A stretch of DNA of 64,000 bases, from positions 1 through 64,000 of the forward strand of contig JAKIWG010000011.1 of the NCBI GenBank assembly GCA_022750155.1, given 5' to 3'. The translations under genes were made by a program, and so were the position numbers. The notes beneath the pieces were generated by a model, which ran no database searches, was not told the DNA's origin, and saw only the letters and a list, made by a program, of their open reading frames with translations. The stretch comes from Thermoplasmata archaeon. GTDB lineage: Archaea; Thermoplasmatota; Thermoplasmata; Lutacidiplasmatales; UBA184. Shown in pieces: positions 101 to 37,013 of this stretch (position 1 is the stretch's first letter; each line of letters opens with the position of its first letter).

Positions 101-162
101 CGGTGCATTCCCCCAAGACACGGTCGGCCACCGCCGCCCGATGTCGTGCGGATTCGGCTCCC

Positions 163-174
163 CCTATATAGAGA
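163..174 (-). promoter_or_regulatory. TATA-like box upstream of the permease gene
   Basis: CTATATAG is an AT-rich island in otherwise GC-rich DNA, about 65 bases upstream of the permease ATG. It is nearly palindromic, so direction is ambiguous, but the only gene starting nearby reads leftward. A transcript starting about 25 bases downstream would have a leader of roughly 40 bases containing the GGGGGA site. Confidence 0.45.
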
Positions 175-230
175 TTTGATGGTTTTCGCCCCTGACTCCG
201 CCGAAGGACCGCCGTGGAGACCCATCGCGC

Positions 231-608
231 TCAGAGGAGCGGCAGTCCCCCTGTGACCCGGTCGACCTCGTTCTCCGGCCCCGGCCCGATGCCCAGGACC
301 GTCTTCGTCCCCGGGGCGACCTCGGTGAACCCGGCGTCCTCGACGAGAACGGTCGCGAGGCCGACGCCGCGGGCGGTCCTTTGGAGCTCGAGCATGGCAT
401 CAAGGGTCGGTGCCACGACGGCGATCTTCTTCTGGCCCCCGGCGAGCCACGCCTCGAGCGTCGGGGCCCGTCGCCGCTCCGCCTCCTGGTAGAGCATGAC
501 CGCGGCGTGCGCGACCTGGACCGCCGCCTTGCCGGCCGTGAGCCGAAGCTCGCCGCGGACCACGAGGACCATTTTGTAGGCGCCGCCGGCCGTTGGCCTA
601 CTGGGCAT
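231..608 (-). CDS. pth2: Peptidyl-tRNA hydrolase, Pth2 family
   Basis: Releases tRNA from peptidyl-tRNAs that drop off the ribosome; this is the archaeal/eukaryotic Pth2 type, unrelated to bacterial Pth. The 125-residue product carries the family pattern YKMVLVVRGELRLTAGKAAV then QVAHAAV near the start, and the late GPGPENEVDRVTG segment matching the Pth2 C-terminus. The ATG at 608 is preferred over the internal ATG at 572 because archaeal homologs also have a few residues before the YK-x-VLVVR strand. The start overlaps the end of the DUF1616 gene by 11 bases, so the two are probably translationally coupled in the srp54 operon. Confidence 0.93.
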   Translation of the reverse strand: MPSRPTAGGAYKMVLVVRGELRLTAGKAAVQVAHAAVMLYQEAERRRAPTLEAWLAGGQKKIAVVAPTLDAMLELQRTARGVGLATVLVEDAGFTEVAPGTKTVLGIGPGPENEVDRVTGGLPLL

Positions 609-34595: not shown

Positions 34596-34835
34596 ATGCT
34601 GAGTTTTGCGGACCAGCGTAGCTTTTCTTCCGCCGAGGACCGGTTCCAACATTGTGCGTTCTGCGGGCGGGATCTCGTGATCCTGCCGAACGACCGCAGG
34701 GGGGGCGCCTGCTTCGATTGCCTCTCGCTGCTGGGGCCGGACGCGGTGCCCTGTCCGGAGTGCGGGTATGAGATCCCCGGCCAGCGCCGCGCCGTCGGCT
34801 GCGGCCGATGCGGGTGGTCCCCGACCCGCGAGTAG
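34596..34835 (+). CDS. Small double zinc-ribbon protein
   Basis: 79 residues containing four C-x2-C knuckles: CAFC, CFDC, CPEC and CGRC, enough for two zinc sites. No family recognised. Preceded by an agattatg TATA-like box about 30 bases before ATG 34596. It sits between the exporter and the tRNA-Ser gene. Small archaeal zinc ribbons often bind RNA or act as protein adaptors; nothing here identifies a partner. Confidence 0.65.
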   Translation: MLSFADQRSFSSAEDRFQHCAFCGRDLVILPNDRRGGACFDCLSLLGPDAVPCPECGYEIPGQRRAVGCGRCGWSPTRE

Positions 34836-34897
34836 CGCCGGATCGTTCCCGCCTCCGCCAAGCTTATCCGACCGCCTCCGTCCCACGACCCGGGCGT

Positions 34898-35015
34898 GCC
34901 GAGGTGGCTCAGTCCGGTACGGCGCGAGTCTGGAAAGCTCGTGGCGGAATACGCCTCGGGAGTTCAAATGCCGAGGACGGCCTCACCGCCCCGGCGGAGA
35001 TTCTCCCCCTCGGCG
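34898..35015 (+). tRNA. tRNA-Ser (anticodon GGA) with a T-loop intron
   Basis: Acceptor GCCGAGG (34898-34904) pairs with CCTCGGC (35008-35014), followed by discriminator G (35015), the serine identity base. The anticodon arm CGAGT-CT-GGA-AA-GCTCG places GGA at 34932-34934; a long variable arm GGCG-gaata-CGCC is present, as expected for serine. The T stem GGGAG (34958-34962) pairs with CTCCC (35003-35007), but 40 bases lie between the halves instead of 7. Removing 33 bases (about 34970-35002) leaves the loop TTCAAAT. CCA is not encoded. A gcttatc box lies about 30 bases upstream. Confidence 0.85.
34970..35002 (+). other. Probable tRNA intron in the T loop
   Basis: Without these 33 bases the serine tRNA folds normally; with them the T arm cannot form. 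The insert is GC-rich and self-complementary (GCCG near its 5' end, CGGC near its 3' end), as expected of an archaeal bulge-helix-bulge intron. The exact cut sites could shift by up to a few bases because flanking T and A residues repeat. Confidence 0.75.
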
Positions 35016-35040: not shown

Positions 35041-35511
35041 TTGACCGTTCATCCACGCCAGGTCACTCCGTCGCTTCTCCAGGTCGACAACGTCCTTGGC
35101 CGCCTGACGGGGGCGGAGGCGTCGGCCGAGGTCTGCCGATTCCTCCTGGGGGAGTTCCGCGAATACCGCTGGGCCGGCGTCTACCGGTTCGATGGCCCGC
35201 GGTTCCGCCTCGATGGATTCGACGGCGTTCCGACTGATCCTCTGATGGAGGGTCCGACCGAGGGGACGCAACTGGAACGAGTGCGTACCACAGGACGGCC
35301 CGAGATTGCCGCGCCCCCCGCGAGCGGCGTGGGAGCCGCACCGAACTCCGTGGGGGTCCAGTCCCGGGTGACCGTCCCGATCCAGATCGGCTCGGCTATC
35401 GATGGGGCGATCGTCGTCGAGAGCGCTTCGTTCCACCCGCTCGACGATTCGGACGCTCGGTTCCTCGGACAGGTCGCCCAACGACTCGCACCCGGCCTGA
35501 CCCGCCCTTAG
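35041..35511 (+). CDS. GAF-domain protein
   Basis: 156 residues, start taken as TTG 35041, only 26 bases after the tRNA end. The sequence shows a GAF pattern: RLTGAEASAEVCRFLLGEF, YRWAGVYRFDG, SRVTVPIQIG and AIVVESASFHPLDDSDARFLG near the end. GAF domains bind small ligands or act as methionine sulfoxide reductases; no catalytic cysteines of the latter are present. The last 116 bases overlap the opposite-strand ligase gene. Its promoter is not clear and it might be read from the tRNA promoter. Confidence 0.65.
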   Translation: MTVHPRQVTPSLLQVDNVLGRLTGAEASAEVCRFLLGEFREYRWAGVYRFDGPRFRLDGFDGVPTDPLMEGPTEGTQLERVRTTGRPEIAAPPASGVGAAPNSVGVQSRVTVPIQIGSAIDGAIVVESASFHPLDDSDARFLGQVAQRLAPGLTRP

Positions 35512-36247
35512 CGGCCCGCCGAAGCCGTAGCTCCATCGCACGGACGGCGGACGAGAGCGCGGTGGCGCGGTCGAAGGGGACGAACCGGACGGGCGTCGAT
35601 CGCGGGGGACGACGCACCTCGCGGTCGATCCGGGCGAGTGCACGCCCGAGCTCATCGATGATCGGCAGGTCTGCGGTCCGGGACGTACGGGACATTGGAT
35701 TGAGGTCGATGCTGATGACCCGGACCCCGCGGGCCCTCAGCGCCTGCGTGCGGTCGCCGTCCTCCAGGGGCACAAGGCACACGTCGGCCCGAGCGATCCC
35801 GCGTCGGTCGACCCAGGCCCGGTCGGAGGGCAGGCCGGGCAACCGCACATCGGGGTGCACCCCCAGCACGGGGGAGATCCCCGCGGACCGGAGGAGGCGG
35901 GCGATCCGCTCGGCCCTCCCGGGGGTGCGGTGGAACAGGTTGACCTCGACCCGAAGCTTCGGGAGCGCCGCCGCCAATGCGGCGATCTGTGGGGCGGCGA
36001 GGGCCGCGACGTTTCCGTTCACGCTCACGATCGGGTGTCGGGCGTGGAAGAGCCACGCAGCGGCCGTTCGTTCGGCGCGCGCGGCCGAGGGCGTGGTGCG
36101 TTCGCCCAGAAAGTAGTCGAACGCTTCCGCGCGGCCGTGCGCCAGGAGCCCCTCGGGTACGACCACTCCGTCGCGAGCGGCCTCCGCGAGGAGCTGCCGG
36201 GTCCGCAGACTTCGGTACCGAGGGTGTGATGGGGAGATCTCGGTCAC
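35396..36247 (-). CDS. 4-phosphopantoate--beta-alanine ligase (phosphopantothenate synthetase)
   Basis: Archaea-specific step of coenzyme A synthesis: joins phosphopantoate and beta-alanine with ATP. From GTG 36247 the 283-residue protein shows ISPSHPRYRSLRTRQLL, GLLAHGRAEAFDYFLGE, IVSVNGNVAALAAPQ, VNLFHRTPGRAERI, VCLVPLEDGDRTQAL and IDLNPMSRTSRTADLPIIDE, matching DUF137 enzymes. The conserved core ends near residue 250; a basic tail of about 30 residues continues over the 3' end of the GAF gene on the other strand. Last gene of a leftward unit with the coiled-coil gene (13-base gap). Confidence 0.9.
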   Translation of the reverse strand: MTEISPSHPRYRSLRTRQLLAEAARDGVVVPEGLLAHGRAEAFDYFLGERTTPSAARAERTAAAWLFHARHPIVSVNGNVAALAAPQIAALAAALPKLRVEVNLFHRTPGRAERIARLLRSAGISPVLGVHPDVRLPGLPSDRAWVDRRGIARADVCLVPLEDGDRTQALRARGVRVISIDLNPMSRTSRTADLPIIDELGRALARIDREVRRPPRSTPVRFVPFDRATALSSAVRAMELRLRRAAKGGSGRVRVVGRPVRGTERPNRRAGGTKRSRRRSPHR

Positions 36248-36260
36248 GGCGGGGACCGGG

Positions 36261-37013
36261 TCACGCCCCGTCCGGGGTCTCGGGGGACTTCTCCACGGTC
36301 TCGGGGTTCGGGGTGGACGTGCCGTTGGCGGCCACCGGACCTTGACCCTCGAGCTGTGCGACCCGCGCCTCGAGGGGGGCCAGCCCCTCCTCGATCGTCT
36401 TCGCCACCACGAGCTTGAGGCTCTCCTCGAGCGCGACGAGGTCGCGGCCGAGGTCGGTGATGCGGCGGGCATTCTCGTTCAGGAGCAGGCGGGTCTGGGT
36501 CGCGACCCGGTACGTGTCGGCGACGTCCTTCAGGACCTGTCGGGACCCCTGGGCGAACGTCTCGATCGATTCTCCCACGGGCTTCCACTTCGCGTCGAGG
36601 TCGCCCCCGAGCTGCTTTCCCAGCGCGGCGGAGAGCTTCCCCAGCCCTTCGTCGAACCGCTGGTCGATCCGCTCGCCGACGTTCTGGTCGACCTGCTCGA
36701 ACCGGGTTCGCACCTCGGTGCCGAGGTTGCCCCCGGCCTCCTCGAGCCGGGCCAACCGGTCGTCGAGGGCCTGCATGCGGGCCGTGAGGTTCGAGTAGGC
36801 ACTGCCGATCAGATTGTCGACCCGGGCCTGGCTGGACTCCTGCGCCCTCAGCATCAGGTGGAGGATCCAGTGCTCGCGGCCCTTCGTCTCCGCGAGGGGG
36901 CCCTTGTCCACCCGGTCGCGCGCTTCGCGGTTGTCGATGAGCTGCTGGAGCTCCTTCAGGACCTCGACCCGGAGCGATTGCGGGGTGGAGCCCGGTGGGG
37001 GCCGGCCACTCAT
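36261..37013 (-). CDS. Coiled-coil protein, unknown function
   Basis: 250 residues with no signal peptide or membrane segment. Residues about 60-220 are largely helical with heptad character (SAYSNLTARMQALDDRLARL, RITDLGRDLVALEESL), so an elongated oligomer is likely. The C-terminal 30 residues are low complexity. Its ATG overlaps the sfsA stop (ATGA). Proteins of this kind near nucleases are sometimes DNA-organising, but no specific family was recognised. Confidence 0.6.
   Translation of the reverse strand: MSGRPPPGSTPQSLRVEVLKELQQLIDNREARDRVDKGPLAETKGREHWILHLMLRAQESSQARVDNLIGSAYSNLTARMQALDDRLARLEEAGGNLGTEVRTRFEQVDQNVGERIDQRFDEGLGKLSAALGKQLGGDLDAKWKPVGESIETFAQGSRQVLKDVADTYRVATQTRLLLNENARRITDLGRDLVALEESLKLVVAKTIEEGLAPLEARVAQLEGQGPVAANGTSTPNPETVEKSPETPDGA

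Follow-up and report, generated by a model that had tools for sequence, protein, structure and literature searches.

Reviews link archaeal tRNA introns outside the anticodon loop to splicing endonucleases that carry a special loop or consist of two subunits (PMC4090602, PMC4033280, PMC6379350), and the loop-free alpha4 and alpha'2 enzymes have been described as narrow (PMC6379350, PMC12397907). Position 59/60 is among the listed archaeal intron sites, mostly in Crenarchaeota and Thaumarchaeota (Yoshihisa 2014, PMC4090602). The introns of Euryarchaea with alpha4 or alpha2 enzymes have been described at the canonical position only (PMC4090602). In 2014, Korarchaeum cryptofilum was called the sole archaeon to combine non-canonical introns with an alpha2 endonuclease (PMC4033280). 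The specificity of the loop-free EndA of Methanopyrus kandleri (5x89) has been described as constrained (PMC6379350), and abundant non-canonical tRNA introns occur in Asgard soil archaea (PMC11291895). The tRNA-Ser(GGA) gene described here resembles the known 59/60 introns in its insertion point, in the bulge-helix-bulge predicted at its junctions, and in the restoration of the T loop when the insert is removed. Unlike those introns, which come mostly from lineages with (alpha-beta)2 enzymes, it belongs to a Thermoplasmatota genome with a loop-free single-chain EndA and one dominant intron site. The genome shares with Asgard soil archaea a soil habitat and many tRNAs broken at unusual positions; however, the phylum is a different one.

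The gene occupies positions 34898-35015 on the plus strand of the window, which is the whole 64,000-nucleotide stretch of DNA analyzed, and reads as a class II tRNA-Ser(GGA) with 33 surplus bases in the T loop (Table 1). It has an acceptor stem GCCGAGG/CCTCGGC with the discriminator G, an anticodon stem CGAGT/GCTCG closing the loop CTGGAAA, and a long variable arm GGCG-GAATA-CGCC. The T-stem halves GGGAG (34958-34962) and CTCCC (35003-35007) are spaced 40 bases apart, as the initial annotation had counted. The T arm of the paralogous tRNA-Ser(TGA) of the same genome (locus L016) is unbroken, and its 3' half, CTC GGGAG TTCAAAT CTCCC CCTC, matches without interruption. Therefore, the 33 bases in tRNA-Ser(GGA) are extra. 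Excision of the insert yields a standard tRNA, in which the TTCAAAT loop and the stems are regained as in tRNA-Ser(TGA). By eye, the upstream neighbor of the gene (34596-34835) appears to encode a small zinc-ribbon protein, and the neighbor at 35396-36472 on the minus strand resembles an archaeal phosphopantoate-beta-alanine ligase.

Table 1 Coordinates of the tRNA-Ser(GGA) gene, of its predicted splice motif, and of tRNA loci with D-loop introns in the same genome
Feature	Position	Strand	Remarks
Putative promoter, TATA-like box AAGCTTATCC	34860..34869	+	29-38 bases 5' of the tRNA; proposed from sequence
5' exon, last bases T loop 54-59 (TTCAAA)	34898..34968	+	No or few differences in 28 other species; alignments end at 34968
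Anticodon GGA	34932..34934	+	Decodes UCC/UCU; in the CTGGAAA loop between CGAGT and GCTCG
GGGAG, 5' strand of the T stem, forming outer helix h in the splice motif	34958..34962	+	5/5 pairs with 35003-35007
T54-A57, central helix 5' strand	34963..34966	+	Against 34996-34999: U54.G, U55-A, C56-G, A57 facing G
5' bulge A58 A59 / U	34967..34969	+	Predicted 5' cleavage 34968/34969, from ortholog boundary and geometry
33-base intron, tRNA position 59/60	34969..35001	+	Missing from paralog tRNA-Ser(TGA); 28 orthologous introns of 32-33 bases, ~70% identity
Intron inner helix h' 5' strand GCCG	34970..34973	+	Partner 34992-34995
Intron inner helix h' 3' strand CGGC	34992..34995	+	Partner 34970-34973
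GGAG, intron positions -6 to -3, central helix 3' strand	34996..34999	+	Pairing with 34963-34966
3' bulge A U / T60	35000..35002	+	Predicted 3' cleavage 35001/35002, from geometry
3' exon: T60, T stem CTCCC, acceptor CCTCGGC, discriminator G73	35002..35015	+	Identical in 29/29 sequences
tRNA-Arg(GCG) with D-loop intron (L035)	G000:C26:70532-70640		Canonical 4-bp helix, 3-nt bulges, read by hand
tRNA-Lys(TTT) with D-loop intron (L049)	C21:36741-36883		Canonical 4-bp helix, 3-nt bulges, read by hand
tRNA-Leu(TAG) with D-loop intron (L109)	C26:~110-271		Canonical 4-bp helix, 3-nt bulges, read by hand

The boundaries of the insert are marked by its orthologs. When the 5' exon is compared by BLAST with 60 relatives, nearly all ortholog matches end at query base 71, just past TTCAAA (position 34968), and 18 other species match exon bases 1-71 without a difference. 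The 3' exon TCTCCCCCTCGGCG is invariant in all 29 sequences, the window included. Introns diverge fast: the mean all-pairs identity of the 29 sequences is about 70-72% for introns and about 98-99% for exons, and the intron length is 33 bases, with 32 occurring once. Because T stands at both 34969 and 35002, excision of 34969-35001 or of 34970-35002 would yield the same mature RNA. The initial annotation had chosen 34970-35002; the length and the product with its TTCAAAT loop stand, whereas the placement shifts by one base, since the ortholog boundary and the geometry of the splice motif suggest that the intron is best placed at 34969-35001. The proposed tRNA-Ser(GGA) with a 33-base T-loop intron is confirmed by direct reading, by the unbroken paralog and by the ortholog boundaries, and the proposal that this Thermoplasmatota genome has an archaeal intron at position 59/60 is supported, with the exact boundary after TTCAAA.

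Standard searches overlook the gene. ARAGORN reports no tRNA in the window, including when introns of up to 200 bases are allowed, Rfam misses tRNA-Ser(GGA) at the gathering threshold, and the RF00005 model recovers it genome-wide only as a truncated match of 22.8 bits. The idea that these misses signify the absence of a tRNA has been rejected, as they reflect limits of the finders. They would also fit a pseudogene, or a decaying insertion, with UCC and UCU read by another tRNA; however, UCC is a frequent codon (9, 7, and 8 occurrences in three genes), and the gene is the only copy detected in the genome, the other BLAST match being tRNA-Ser(TGA) at 78%. A second complete tRNA-Ser(GGA), which the initial annotation had named as the sign of a pseudogene, was not detected in the genome; the gene is therefore not a redundant pseudogene. 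The identity of the exon bases across species already contradicts decay, and this explanation is barely credible.

We put at about 90% the probability that the tRNA-Ser(GGA) gene at positions 34898-35015 is functional, exists in a single copy, and carries an archaeal intron at 59/60 that is spliced by proteins. The gene would be transcribed, and the T stem of the precursor would run on into a bulge-helix-bulge. In this motif, T54-R57 would pair with intron positions -6 to -3, A58 A59/N1 would form the 5' bulge and N-2 N-1/T60 the 3' bulge, and the intron would make a hairpin on top. The single-chain two-unit EndA of the genome, acting as a dimer (alpha'2), would cut after A59 and before T60, and RtcB would ligate the exons, producing the seven-base T loop TTCAAAT. 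The minimum-free-energy fold of the unspliced transcript breaks the cloverleaf, which is expected of a precursor but is not proof of one.

The intron of tRNA-Ser(GGA) is one of many. Reading of weak hits, together with searches using the covariance model R1 built from nine T-loop-intron tRNA genes of this genome, identifies an intron at the same T-loop site in at least 14 of about 42 recognized tRNA genes (Ser-GGA, Ser-CGA, Ser-GCT, Arg-TCT, Arg-TCG, Glu-CTC, Asn-GTT, Ala-GGC, Gly-TCC, Gln-CTG, Asp-GTC, His-GTG, Lys-TTT, and Leu-TAG), the tRNA set assembled from model searches being a lower bound. The initial annotation was correct about the intron but understated its scope, which extends to a class-wide pattern. 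Other tRNAs of the genome have no insert in the T loop. D-loop introns are present in the tRNAs Arg-GCG, Lys-TTT, and Leu-TAG, of which the last two contain D-loop and T-loop introns in one gene, and ordinary 37/38 introns are found in three others (Tyr, Met, and Leu-TAA).

The predicted junctions of tRNA-Ser(GGA) include two 3-nt bulges with a short helix between them. The central helix has three standard pairs and A57.G; this fourth pair is nonstandard, so the motif departs from the strict canonical form. The strict four-pair form is not required of relaxed members of the bulge-helix-bulge group. The central helices of the 14 T-loop introns found in this genome comprise 56 positions, 48 of which pair, compared with 22.9 +/- 3.5 after shuffling (0/20,000 shuffles), and all four pairs are standard in 6 of the 14. 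The 29-pair model of the nine-gene alignment has 94.9% standard pairs against 65.5% in shuffled alignments, two-sided changes in 21 pairs against 14.4, and a covariation score of 0.794 against 0.231; sliding the partners by one column collapses the covariation signal. The insert could instead never be removed, so that the tRNAs would keep a permanently extended T arm, and the insert of tRNA-Ser(GGA) is on its own predicted to fold stably into a hairpin (-14.5 kcal/mol). However, the bases TTCRAA and T60 of the T loop, through which normal tRNAs make the contact between the D loop and T loop, are kept on both sides of the insert, the end of which covaries with the T loop as the splice motif demands; there are tRNAs without the insert in the same genome, which also encodes EndA and RtcB. 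A permanent extension is thus very unlikely.

The geometry of T54-R57 opposite intron positions -6 to -3 is common to 120 distinct T-loop-intron tRNAs. G57 faces C(-6) in 60/60 introns with G57, and although part of the 120 loci had been selected by a G57 pattern, the G57-C pair is still exceptionless when only unselected loci from the genome itself, the genus, and other families are considered. Among the 60 introns with A57, the opposing base at -6 is G in 48 and U in 10. A standard fourth pair occurs in half of the collected introns (10/60 among those with A57). As A57.G recurs over the collection, it is a recurring feature and not noise, although many of its instances are orthologs of one gene. 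G(-6) could alternatively pair with intron base 1 in approximately half of the introns with A57.

T-loop introns occur throughout the genus (Lutacidiplasmatales), with 4-13 strong R1 matches per species in 36/36 other sampled species and 9-12 matches in each of six named relatives, including Ca. Lutacidiplasma silvani AcS3-62, UBA184, UBA61, AcS1-3, and AcS5-107. The R1 matches of AcS1-3 and AcS5-107 lie at coordinates equal to those in the same-genus genomes G010 and G025, by which the genus of the window is assigned to the order Lutacidiplasmatales (PMC9287336). T loops are common targets of integrases. A recent mobile element could have left its footprint at one target site shared by many tRNAs, in place of a splicing intron; however, the insert is short, its flanking duplication is no more than one T, and it is conserved among orthologs across the genus with covariation of the splice motif. 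A recent footprint is highly improbable, whereas a mobile element could be the distant origin of the introns.

Outside the genus, strict R1 thresholds separate intron-bearing from ordinary tRNAs incompletely, with 73-nt matches scoring up to 64 bits. Therefore, the class was surveyed using an explicit pattern and a reversed control. The pattern GGTTCGAA-N14-44-CGAA-NN-TCC, which is stringent and covers the G57 subset only, is present in 240/400 class genomes, compared with about 30 for the reversed control, and in all 25 other-genus members of the family to which the window belongs. In 26/26 loci from other families of the class, the T-stem halves are 5/5 paired around an insert of ~14-45 bases, which has a YGAA-like end followed by two further bases and T60. 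The pattern is absent from the sampled members of families f15 (0/14), f31 (0/14), and f27 (0/5), and its frequency in f19 (2/62) is below that of its reversed control. One member of f15 has a Thermoplasma-sized EndA of 299 aa. A few palindromic GGTTCGAA...TTCGAACC matches in family f64 were rejected as artefacts of the pattern. T-loop introns, ending CGAAAAT, were also seen in f37 and f60, which are Thermoplasmatota from outside the class of the window.

A PF01974 search identifies a single EndA gene with two domains in one frame (C49:34120-34917); the protein has a length of 353 aa. The subunit architecture, which the initial annotation had proposed to identify, is that of two tandem units in one chain; neither separate alpha and beta genes nor a three-unit chain were found by PF01974 or in the structure model. 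PF01974 also matches in 28/28 good-quality genomes of the relatives sample, nearly always with both domains in one frame. The catalytic residues Y291, H299, and K330 are in invariant columns. The predicted structure (pLDDT 94, pTM 0.88) has two tandem repeated units and a tight two-residue turn where other enzymes carry a CSL or ASL, the crenarchaeal or ARMAN specific loop with a lysine near the active site. This turn aligns without gaps to the EndA of M. jannaschii and A. fulgidus, the loop spacing YGSRVGARLELS has the same length in 26/26 class sequences, and none of these 26 has a CSL/ASL-type insertion. The best fold matches are M. kandleri 5x89 (TM 0.87/0.91) and A. fulgidus. The model indicates an alpha'2-type enzyme, with one chain, two tandem units, and a Tyr/His/Lys active site, which, judging from its architecture, should act as a homodimer. 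The genome encodes RtcB as well, and thus possesses both the endonuclease and a ligase.

The enzyme resembles the narrow alpha'2 EndA of Archaeoglobus fulgidus and Thermoplasma acidophilum in its tandem two-unit chain, Tyr/His/Lys residues, and lack of a loop. By contrast, euryarchaeal introns have been described from the canonical site only, whereas this genome has many in T loops. Korarchaeum cryptofilum likewise combines a homodimer-type EndA with non-canonical introns; however, its EndA has been reported with a specific loop (PMC4033280), which the class enzymes lack. The M. kandleri EndA is similar in fold, in the absence of a specific loop, and in its euryarchaeal host, but it consists of two unlike subunits, which are fused in 5x89, whereas here one natural gene encodes both units.

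The initial annotation held that the T-loop intron implies an endonuclease of relaxed specificity. Since the genome has one loop-free single-chain EndA and most motifs are near-canonical, this inference is unsupported. Splicing by a relaxed enzyme, or by an EndA relaxed by a different route, would agree with the nonstandard A57.G(-6) pair of 48/60 A57 introns and with the best structural match being a loop-free enzyme of reported constrained-broad specificity (PMC6379350). However, the relaxing loop is missing from 26/26 class sequences, the standard fourth pair is found in half of the collected T-loop introns, and the three hand-read D-loop introns have canonical 4-bp helices with 3-nt bulges, so that we consider relaxed splicing unlikely. 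In most T-loop and D-loop introns of the genome, the bulge-helix-bulge appears to be canonical or to have a single mismatch, and a strict enzyme could cut such motifs. Relaxed specificity would be unnecessary for the G57 class, the motifs of which are canonical; for the A57.G class, which includes tRNA-Ser(GGA), it is possible.

We lean slightly towards an evolutionary scenario in which the introns of Thermoplasmatota spread to many T loops without EndA gaining a relaxing loop, the loop-free enzyme accepting A57.G(-6) for G57-C(-6). Such a spread, if true, would break the accepted rule of co-evolution, which pairs loop-bearing or heteromeric EndA with non-canonical introns. The combination of a loop-free one-gene EndA with recurrent T-loop introns in a large, mostly uncultured class makes the co-evolution model directly testable. 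A literature search on Thermoplasmatota found no report of tRNA introns in T loops or at other non-canonical sites, which does not establish priority, and the main text of the Lutacidiplasmatales paper does not mention introns (PMC9287336). As far as this search reaches, the host lineage, the class-wide recurrence at a single site, the loop-free EndA context, and the G57-C/A57.G rule are new, whereas the kind of element was already known.

Finders that model introns in the anticodon loop only overlook genes of this type, as ARAGORN did with tRNA-Ser(GGA). Because tRNAs with T-loop introns are overlooked, inferences about genome completeness and codon decoding that are based on tRNAs can be wrong for these genomes. 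Ala-TGC is truncated by a contig end exactly within the T loop. Ends of the contigs C17, C25, C26, and C44 (L034, L111, L109, and L110) lie inside T-loop-intron tRNA genes, one of them exactly at the T loop; variation between strains, or breaks of the assembly at tRNAs, may account for these ends.
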